Origin: an uncultured SAR86 cluster bacterium
GTDB lineage: Bacteria; Pseudomonadota; Gammaproteobacteria; Magnimaribacterales; Magnimaribacteraceae
Direction of reading: 5' to 3'
DNA: 45,736 nt
NCBI GenBank assembly: GCA_902630715.1
Contig: CACOVO010000011.1
Coordinates: forward strand, 1-45,736
Position 1 is the first letter of the stretch. The number at the start of each line of letters is the position of its first letter. The notes under the pieces were generated by a model. It was given only the letters and a program-made list of their open reading frames with translations, was not told the origin of the DNA and did not search any database. Positions 37,261-42,414 of the stretch are shown here, one piece after another. The translations under genes and the position numbers were made by a program.

Positions 37261-39944
<2,684 letters not shown>

Positions 39945-39945
39945 A

Positions 39946-42414
39946 TTAACTTGCAGCCATCTCTACAGCTTCGTCAACATCAACAGCAACCATTCGCGAA
40001 ACACCAGGTTCTTGCATTGTTACTCCCATAAGATGTTTACTTTTTTCCATTGAGATCTTGTTGTGCGTTATGTAAACAAATTGAACTCTTTGAGACATTT
40101 CATCGACTAGGTCAATAAACCTCATTGTATTCAGATCATCCAGTGGAGCATCCACTTCATCAAGTAAGCAGAAAGGAGCAGGATTTAATTCAAAGAAAGC
40201 AAAAACTGTAGCAATAGCAGTTAAGGCTTTTTCACCTCCAGACAGTTGAGAGACACTTGCATTCTTTTTTCCAGGAGGCCTAGCTGATATACCAACTCCA
40301 CATGTGAGAAGATCATCACCAAGTAAAATAAGCTCAGCGTGACCACCCCCGAATAACTTCGGAAAAGATTGAGATAAACTGGCATTAAGTTTATCGAAAG
40401 TGTCCTTAAAAGTTGTCCTAGTCTCTTTATCTATTTTTGTTATGGCCTTTTCTAAAGTCTCCAAGGCTTCCATTAACTCATCATGTTGACTATCCAGGAG
40501 TTCCTTTCTTTTTGATTCCTGATCATATTCTTCCATTGCCGCGAGATTGATAGCACCAAGTCTTGTGATTTTTAGCTCTATTGATTCTAAATCAGCTGAA
40601 TAATCAGTGATCAACTTGTCTTCAACTAAATATTCTTTAATTTCCTGTAAATCACCCTCCAAATCTCTAACCTGATTCTCTATATTATCTTGTTCAATCT
40701 TTGAGGCTTGTCTTTCCAATCTCAAATTCTCCAAGAGCTCTCTCAGCTTTATGGCTGCTTGCTCTTTCTCTATTTTTTCTCTCTCTATTTTATGGATCGA
40801 TGCATTACAGACTTCTATAGATTTTCTTGCATCTAGTAACTTACTTTCGACTTTCAATCTATGAGATAAGAGTTCGTCAAGATTCTTTTGGATTAATTCA
40901 ATTGGTTGCAAGAGATTTACAGATTCTTCACTCAATTTATTATTTTCATCAGAGAGATCTGCAAGCTTCGCGCTTATGTGTGACTCTTCTGCATATATAG
41001 AAGCGAGCTTAGCTTGAAGATTCGCATAAGTGTCTGTTTTATCAATGAGGTCTATACGGCTTTTTTTAGCATCTTCAGATGCATTAGTTAAGAAATCTTG
41101 CGTTAACTTAGTAAGTCTTTCTGGTTCTGTCTGAAGCTCATCTAAATCTTGCTTGGAAGATTGTATAAGTGAGACTAATTGCTTAATTTTTTCTTCGTTA
41201 ATTTCAATTGGATAAGATAAATCAACTGATTTTGATAGATTTGACAGTATATTTTTTATCTTTGTTATGAAAAGCAACCAAGAACTCTCCAGCCTTTTTG
41301 CCTCAGCATCATTAAGTTCGTCATTTCCAGCAGTCTTCAAAGCTTTCAGTTCGGATTCAATATTTTCTAATTCATTACTAGCAGCTATTTTTGTTTCAAG
41401 AAGGTTTTGGGTTTCCTTGGTTCTTGATTCGATAAGCAATTTATTTGTCGAAATTTTCTCATTTATTTCGTTGATTCTCTCTTTTTTGAGAGAAAGATCT
41501 TGCTCAGTTCTCGAAATATCCGCTCCGTAGCTGTAAAACTCTTGTTGAACATTATCAAGTGCTGTTTGTAATTCAATTTGCGTAGCTCTTAATTTTATAA
41601 CTTCGCTATCGGAAGAGTTTTTTTCTGAATTAACCTGTTCAACTTTCAATTCCTGAGCTTTTACTTCCTCTTCTTTAACTTTTAATGTTTTTGAAACTTC
41701 CCTCCATTTTGCCCCTAAGAGCATTAATTTAGCTTTTGCTTCTTCATTCCTCAATTCATGATATTTTTCTGCAGCCTTTGCTTGCCTTTGTAACTTAAAT
41801 AATAAGCGCGAAATTTCTTCTCTTAAGTCGTCTAAACGAGATAAATTTTCCTTAGTTCTCTTAATTCTAGATTCTGTTTCCTTTTTTCTTTCTAAATAGC
41901 GAGAGATGCCAGCAACCTCTTCAATGTAGCCTCTCATTTCATCTGGTTTGGCACTTACTATTTGCGATATCATTCCTTGCTCTATGATCGCATAAGATCT
42001 TGGTCCAAGACCTGTGCCAAGAAAAACATCTATAATGTCTTTTTTTCTGCAACTTGTTCCATTGAGATAATAATTAGATTGGCCATCCAACTCTAAGCTT
42101 CTTCTTACAGAAATTTCGCTATAGCTTGAAAATTCTCCACCTATTCGTCCATCTTTGTTATCGAAGAATAGTTCTACAGAGGCTTTTGATACAGGTTTCC
42201 TTGATGAAGATCCGTTGAATACAACATCGGTCATAGCCTCGCTTCTGAGATTTTTAGCTGAGCTCTCCCCTAAAACCCATCTTACTGCATCAATAACATT
42301 TGATTTTCCACATCCATTTGGACCAACAATACACGACATGCTTGAAGGGAAAGTAACTGTTGTGGGATCAACAAATGACTTAAAACCTGAGAGCTTTATT
42401 GAGTTGAGTCTCAT
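39946..42414 (-). CDS. smc: Condensin subunit SMC, short form lacking a recognisable hinge
   Basis: A chromosome-organising ATPase. The heads are complete: Walker A GPNGCGKSN (31-39), the Q-loop region SYAIIEQGMISQIV, signature LSGGEKA (724-730), Walker B FCLLDEVDAPLDD (~748-760) and H-loop YITHNK. Arms are coiled coil (~170-360 and ~445-600). Bacterial SMC proteins are usually ~1150-1200 residues with a ~150-residue hinge; this one is 822. The middle (362-445) is a short helical stretch with no hinge glycine motifs and no CXXC hook. Heads match Pseudomonas-type SMC closely. It is first in the operon with zipA and ligA. The frame is intact, so this is not a frameshift. Confidence 0.94.
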   Translation of the reverse strand: MRLNSIKLSGFKSFVDPTTVTFPSSMSCIVGPNGCGKSNVIDAVRWVLGESSAKNLRSEAMTDVVFNGSSSRKPVSKASVELFFDNKDGRIGGEFSSYSEISVRRSLELDGQSNYYLNGTSCRKKDIIDVFLGTGLGPRSYAIIEQGMISQIVSAKPDEMRGYIEEVAGISRYLERKKETESRIKRTKENLSRLDDLREEISRLLFKLQRQAKAAEKYHELRNEEAKAKLMLLGAKWREVSKTLKVKEEEVKAQELKVEQVNSEKNSSDSEVIKLRATQIELQTALDNVQQEFYSYGADISRTEQDLSLKKERINEINEKISTNKLLIESRTKETQNLLETKIAASNELENIESELKALKTAGNDELNDAEAKRLESSWLLFITKIKNILSNLSKSVDLSYPIEINEEKIKQLVSLIQSSKQDLDELQTEPERLTKLTQDFLTNASEDAKKSRIDLIDKTDTYANLQAKLASIYAEESHISAKLADLSDENNKLSEESVNLLQPIELIQKNLDELLSHRLKVESKLLDARKSIEVCNASIHKIEREKIEKEQAAIKLRELLENLRLERQASKIEQDNIENQVRDLEGDLQEIKEYLVEDKLITDYSADLESIELKITRLGAINLAAMEEYDQESKRKELLDSQHDELMEALETLEKAITKIDKETRTTFKDTFDKLNASLSQSFPKLFGGGHAELILLGDDLLTCGVGISARPPGKKNASVSQLSGGEKALTAIATVFAFFELNPAPFCLLDEVDAPLDDLNTMRFIDLVDEMSQRVQFVYITHNKISMEKSKHLMGVTMQEPGVSRMVAVDVDEAVEMAAS

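Follow-up and report, generated by a model that had tools for sequence, protein, structure and literature searches.

A hinge-less SMC protein with a putative helical arm tip in the marine SAR86 order

The window analysed here, a stretch of 45,736 nucleotides from an uncultured SAR86 cluster bacterium (contig CACOVO010000011.1, assembly GCA_902630715.1), encodes a protein that family model, motifs and operon position all identify as a genuine bacterial SMC, and from which the hinge is truly gone. The short, hinge-less state is ancestral to SAR86, the loss being ancient and order-wide, and the ~85 residues that remain in the middle of the protein are predicted to form a new helical tip. We consider it reasonably probable that the protein belongs to a working SMC-ScpAB condensin whose pairing would proceed through this replacement tip.

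Table 1. Features of the smc locus in window coordinates
Feature	Position	Strand	Basis
smc, hinge-less SMC, 822 aa	39946..42414	-	uninterrupted ORF, family models
N-terminal ATPase half, residues 1-165	41920..42414	-	sequence, invariant columns of alignment A1, SMC_N; boundary approximate
N-terminal coiled-coil arm, residues 166-360	41335..41919	-	single long helix 171-360, AlphaFold2 model
Putative helical tip at hinge position, residues 361-446	41077..41334	-	AlphaFold2 helices, no strands; no hinge match
C-terminal coiled-coil arm, ~residues 447-655	40450..41076	-	AlphaFold2 helices and alignment; boundary approximate
C-terminal ATPase half, LSGGE 724-728 and Walker B LLDEVDAP	39949..40449	-	sequence, invariant columns
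zipA, ZipA C-terminal domain	39297..39944	-	PF04354 E 4.4e-17
ligA, NAD-dependent DNA ligase	37261..39285	-	PF01653 E 6.1e-96 and further ligase domains

The first-pass annotation had called the protein an SMC, and the family models agree: it scores 812.9 bits against the equivalog model TIGR02168 (SMC_prok_B, cut-off 567.35), and the Pfam SMC_N match (E 5.1e-61) spans both protein ends. Walker A (GPNGCGKSN, residues 31-39), the LSGGE signature and Walker B are all intact and largely invariant in alignment A1; an INLAA motif near residue 622 lies, by alignment, inside the C-terminal arm. The models of related families fit far less well, with 47.8 bits for RecN (TIGR00634, cut-off 407.85), 68.7 bits for the NCBIfam model of the archaea-specific SMC-related protein ASRP (cut-off 300) and a score far under the cut-off for Rad50, and MukB domains are absent among the Pfam matches at E<=10. 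The frame is uninterrupted, as had been noted, and its product is indeed unusually short, since most frames listed elsewhere in the class are ~1160-1250 aa long. Pfam also recovers the reported smc-zipA-ligA order for both neighbours, which lie downstream of smc on the same strand. This order is conserved, ligA being found no more than 1.5 kb downstream at 74 of the 79 named loci and a zipA match at 75; among the five loci with no nearby ligA, four end within 540 bases, and CP097973.1 is truly devoid of ligA at this place. In two cases (L126 and L217, that is CP097973.1 and G056) ligA does not adjoin smc-zipA.

The absence of the hinge was assessed at the level of both proteins and genomes. 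The Pfam hinge model PF06470 finds nothing in the 822-aa protein even at E<=10, nor in four further SAR86 SMCs (728, 995, 736 and 810 aa), and it is present in 5/5 control SMCs of Gammaproteobacteria (1161-1177 aa, 28-57 bits). This model is imperfect, as it misses some long frames (no match at E<=0.1 for G217, 1165 aa, and G292, 1191 aa), and therefore length and a local hinge HMM, built from 11 gammaproteobacterial SMCs, were used in addition. The local HMM reached at most 5.7 bits across 107 SAR86 rows, of which 83 are distinct and one is a fragment, as compared to 65-223 bits in all 11 leave-one-out controls, so that the missing hinge claimed at first pass is borne out. The same is true of the missing hook: none of the 107 rows has a CXXC in its middle region, and a zinc hook at the tip was rejected on this ground. 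Compared with relatives of 1161-1177 aa, ~340-350 residues have been lost. The proposed in-frame loss of ~330 residues was thus about right in size, but it is not a recent deletion.

At the genome level, PF06470 passes its cut-off in 219 of 274 genomes of the class survey and in none of the 203 genomes of the SAR86 order; at E<=1 it has no match in the 40 good genomes of the order. Weak matches (E<=1) in six of the 203 genomes, the best of them with an E-value of 0.025, might be taken to mean that a small protein of its own provides the hinge in trans. Two of the six carry an in-frame stop and the four inspected are, judging by motif, what we take to be ApaH-like phosphatases, and with no genome of the order above the cut-off we regard such a split arrangement as highly improbable.

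The nearest named records to the 822-aa SMC are from SAR86, and full-length relatives, looked for within the lineage, were not found: the relatives are short as well. An SMC with both ATPase motifs is encoded at 76 of the 79 named loci (contig ends truncate the remaining three), with lengths of 727-827 aa in 72 of them and 995 aa in four; the complete single-contig chromosome CP097973.1 encodes a 728-aa form. Of 61 genomes, 56 have an SMC match, in open frames with no stops, and the five with no match are incomplete. The source genome is itself an incomplete assembly (63.7%), which could by itself suggest an error of assembly or gene calling, or a decaying pseudogene. An assembly artefact was rejected, as the same layout recurs at the 76 named loci, the complete chromosome included. 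A pseudogene is at odds with the open frames and with a dN/dS of 0.02-0.07 for the gene (29 of 170 pairs, 25 of them distinct, chosen to have the same length and a dS of 0.1-1.0, with each row used once); we give this whole class of explanations practically no weight. The smc gene is under strong purifying selection, which is unevenly spread over the protein: dN/dS is lowest in the heads (0.016-0.017), intermediate in the arms (0.048 and 0.062) and highest in the tip (0.091), the least constrained part of the SMC.

ScpA (E 1.3e-35) and ScpB (E 4.7e-52), whose presence the first-pass annotation had proposed to check, are encoded side by side in the source genome, to which the search for ScpB was confined; ScpA was found in 172 of the 203 genomes of the order and in 39 of the 40 good ones. 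In all of the 10 near-complete genomes inspected, SMC_N ranks the short SMC first and it is the only full SMC; no further SMC-like frame is conspicuous, the next matches being frames of ~340-370 aa, followed by weaker ones whose frames have the size of ABC proteins or UvrA. A second, full-length SMC was found neither in these genomes nor in the source genome. A RecN-like frame does not stand out among the SMC_N matches of the 10 genomes either.

RecN consists of a head and a short coiled coil with no hinge, and the hinge-less head-and-coil layout is that of both RecN and Rad50. The protein could in principle have left condensin work and act in repair like RecN or SbcC, and the lack of an evident RecN in the near-complete genomes would be in keeping with such a role. 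On the other hand, the scores of the SMC_prok_B and RecN models point the opposite way, the CXXC of a Rad50-like hook is absent, ScpA and ScpB are kept, and no other SMC is left for condensin work, all of which makes a repair machine improbable in our view. The first-pass annotation had offered another mode of dimerisation or a different machine as the consequence of losing the hinge; these were the right alternatives, and the adjacency of ScpA and ScpB in the source genome speaks for a condensin that has a new tip rather than for a different machine.

What occupies the position of the hinge was approached by structure prediction. The AlphaFold2 model of the 822-aa protein (50 sequences, mean pLDDT 72.1, pTM 0.35) is free of strands from residue 146 to residue 691. 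Beyond the outgoing arm it places tip helices at 366-400, 407-427 and 430-443 (tip pLDDT ~54-79), and the return arm starts at 447, with helices 447-584, 602-619 and 625-688. The 728-aa form (22 sequences, pTM 0.44) is modelled as a helix, a short tip helix at 343-357 and a return helix from 362. Confidence is low in both models (tip pLDDT 50-79), which contain helices only at the tip. A search of the PDB for relatives of the tip (residues 361-447) gave two chance-level matches only (E 0.021 and 0.57), and a fold search with the model returned SMC heads as its best hits, at poor superposition (5xei, rmsd 33.7), and is uninformative for the tip. Long antiparallel coiled-coil arms are present in these low-confidence models but shortened, to ~190 residues where relatives have roughly 300 or more. 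We also counted the residues between a fixed post-head motif and INLAA (row sets of 91, 21 and 11, with one SAR86 row among the 11). This distance is ~780-795 in most hinge-bearing relative rows and 426-444 or 345-355 in SAR86, rising to 613 in the 995-aa form; in a second order with short SMCs (see below) it is ~543-556.

We propose that the SAR86 SMC may still serve as the chromosome condensin SMC-ScpAB. The helical arm tip would functionally replace the lost hinge, with two SMC proteins pairing there; the opposite end of the complex would be closed by the kleisin ScpA together with the ATP-driven engagement of the heads, and the outcome would be a smaller ring or rod. A condensin with a replacement tip is suggested by the TIGR02168 score, the presence of ScpA and ScpB, the lack of any other SMC, the low dN/dS, the kept operon, the all-helical tip and the matched doubling of both arms in the 995-aa form (see below) taken together. 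RecN-type tips and zinc hooks pair SMC-like proteins at their arm ends. Pairing at the SAR86 tip would be in keeping with its hydrophobicity in two of the families (labelled f1-f4 among the named loci by length and similarity), and the use of a tip other than the hinge has a precedent in zinc-hook engineering (PMC5344682, PMC6969161). Hydrophobicity peaks at the tip within the middle region of 26/28 f1 and 25/28 f3 sequences, and at the corresponding place in all 11 hinge controls and in 14/19 proteins of the second order; a peak there is less frequent in f2 (10/19), f2L (1/4), f4 (0/3) and f42 (0/1). Against pairing at the tip stand these last four families, where it is the hydrophobic peak in about half of the sequences (f2) or in one or none of them, its position as the least constrained part of the protein and the low confidence of the models. 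A tip fold common to the families was rejected, as hhalign found no mutual alignment between their tips (probability <=5%), and hence no single conserved pairing module is visible.

These same observations, the tips that diverge and are the least constrained region and their lack of hydrophobicity in f4, together with the retention of ScpA and ScpB, would suit an SMC with no pairing at the arm tips at all, in which monomers meet at the ATP-bound heads and through ScpA-ScpB to form a clamp rather than a hinged ring. A bare turn between the arms, however, would have no need to be the hydrophobic peak in 51 of the 56 f1 and f3 sequences, nor for parts of it to be better conserved than the flanking coil, as they are in these two families; and arms that are kept long, and even doubled, would make little sense with nothing at their end. 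We therefore hold a clamp to be rather unlikely, though it deserves more weight than a role in repair.

The doubling of arms was observed in the 995-aa form, which accounts for four of the 76 named proteins (L106, L108, L109 and L115). In L106, residues 227-345 align with 347-465 with no gap over 119 residues (score 297), and residues 518-659 align with 661-802 over 142 residues (score 360); for comparison, the best of 500 shuffles scored 83 and an unrelated arm-to-arm alignment 70. The duplication has the same bounds in L109 (scores 271 and 304), so that the bounds were measured in these two proteins, with L108 and L115 sharing the length of 995 aa. On one side the duplications break off at the tip, and on the other at arm positions of matching height. 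By these alignments, both arms have been re-lengthened by matched internal duplications, in a pattern consistent with the insertion of an arm-tip-arm unit at the tip of a second copy. A single nested insertion would explain the pattern, and so would a pair of matched tandem duplications; the former needs just one event. The matched doubling shows that the paired arms evolve as a unit; the hinge was not regained despite this joint growth (PF06470, L109).

As a kind, the hinge-less SMC is already known: Sussfeld et al. 2025 (PMC12153180) drew on a gene catalogue to report one in marine Actinomycetes. SAR86 has no occurrence in the main text of that paper, and a SAR86 hinge-less SMC was not found in the open-licence literature. 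According to the passages that describe it, the actinobacterial protein shares with the SAR86 one its annotation as SMC, the marine origin, the lack of both hinge and CXXC, and the lack of a regular SMC alongside (PMC12153180). The SAR86 case differs in its gammaproteobacterial order, its operon, the presence of ScpA and ScpB, the several types of tip and the doubling of arms. With the condensin SMC of SMC-ScpAB (TIGR02168) it has in common the heads, motifs, antiparallel arms, operon place and ScpA/ScpB, and it differs in that the hinge is gone, the arms are shortened and a helical tip would stand instead. The likeness to RecN ends with the hinge-less head and coil, given the 47.8 bits against a cut-off of 407.85; ASRP is SMC-like and short, as the SAR86 protein is, but its model gives 68.7 bits against a cut-off of 300, and Rad50/SbcC carry a CXXC zinc hook at the tip, which is found in 0/107 SAR86 rows. 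There is also an engineered parallel to the tip: a B. subtilis Smc with the Rad50 zinc hook in place of its hinge is called functional in a passage of PMC5344682. In both cases the hinge is swapped for another tip, although the chimera is artificial and contains CXXC (PMC5344682), and the SAR86 tip is natural and has none. Hook and hinge are also described as interchangeable in Rad50 (PMC6969161), and both precedents support the view that a tip other than the hinge can serve.

These comparisons give the natural proteins some value as test cases. Models of loop extrusion have the hinge take part in pairing, in the binding of DNA and in its entry (as outlined in PMC12153180), and an abundant marine order that keeps SMC and ScpA with no hinge makes the need for it directly testable; the SAR86 SMC is in this sense a natural test of how much of the condensin machine is needed. 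Likewise, the 727-, 822- and 995-aa forms constitute a natural series of arm lengths that can be compared with the rule on arm length reported for B. subtilis Smc (in a passage of PMC5344682). Calculating arm lengths against the published modes was set aside for these proteins, as the procedure takes the hinge as its point of measurement.

To assess whether the loss extends beyond SAR86, we used the class survey, where three small genomes outside the order stand out by their SMC length, G343 (944 aa), G455 (927 aa) and G240 (937 aa); no hinge was found in any of the three with PF06470 and the local HMM. In the order of G343, the second gammaproteobacterial order with short SMCs, a match is present in 22 of 25 genomes, 19 of them with full-length frames of 929-956 aa; the hinge HMM gives the 19 distinct proteins -7.5 to 3.4 bits. 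The genomes behind L209, L210 and L220-L238 (order of G343) and L211 (G240) are small and carry SMCs of 926-944 aa with no detectable hinge.

Trees of head sequences were computed from 42 or 46 rows, hand-picked from the 83 distinct SAR86 rows and others at hand, Gammaproteobacteria only. SAR86 forms one group in them (99/99 in the fuller tree) and the second order another (100/100), and the two are not joined. Three changes are needed on the head-sequence tree, two of which are forced by starred branches; on the fuller tree, which includes four long rows, starred branches force just one. In the one-clade test p-AU was 0.054 (0.057 for SAR86 and f145 alone), and a single ancient hinge loss is thus not rejected. 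A broader scenario, to which we give a little less than an even chance, involves two or three separate losses of the hinge among Gammaproteobacteria with small genomes: in SAR86, in the order to which G343 belongs and in the G240 family. Each loss would have been followed by a newly made helical tip, and the arms would later have been re-extended by nested arm-tip-arm insertion; the hinge fold, its DNA-binding surface and the full arm length would then be dispensable for SMC-ScpAB. One further protein of the survey, L212 from G205, has an SMC of 1000 aa that has kept its hinge (93.7 bits), indicating that arms can be shortened with no loss of the hinge.
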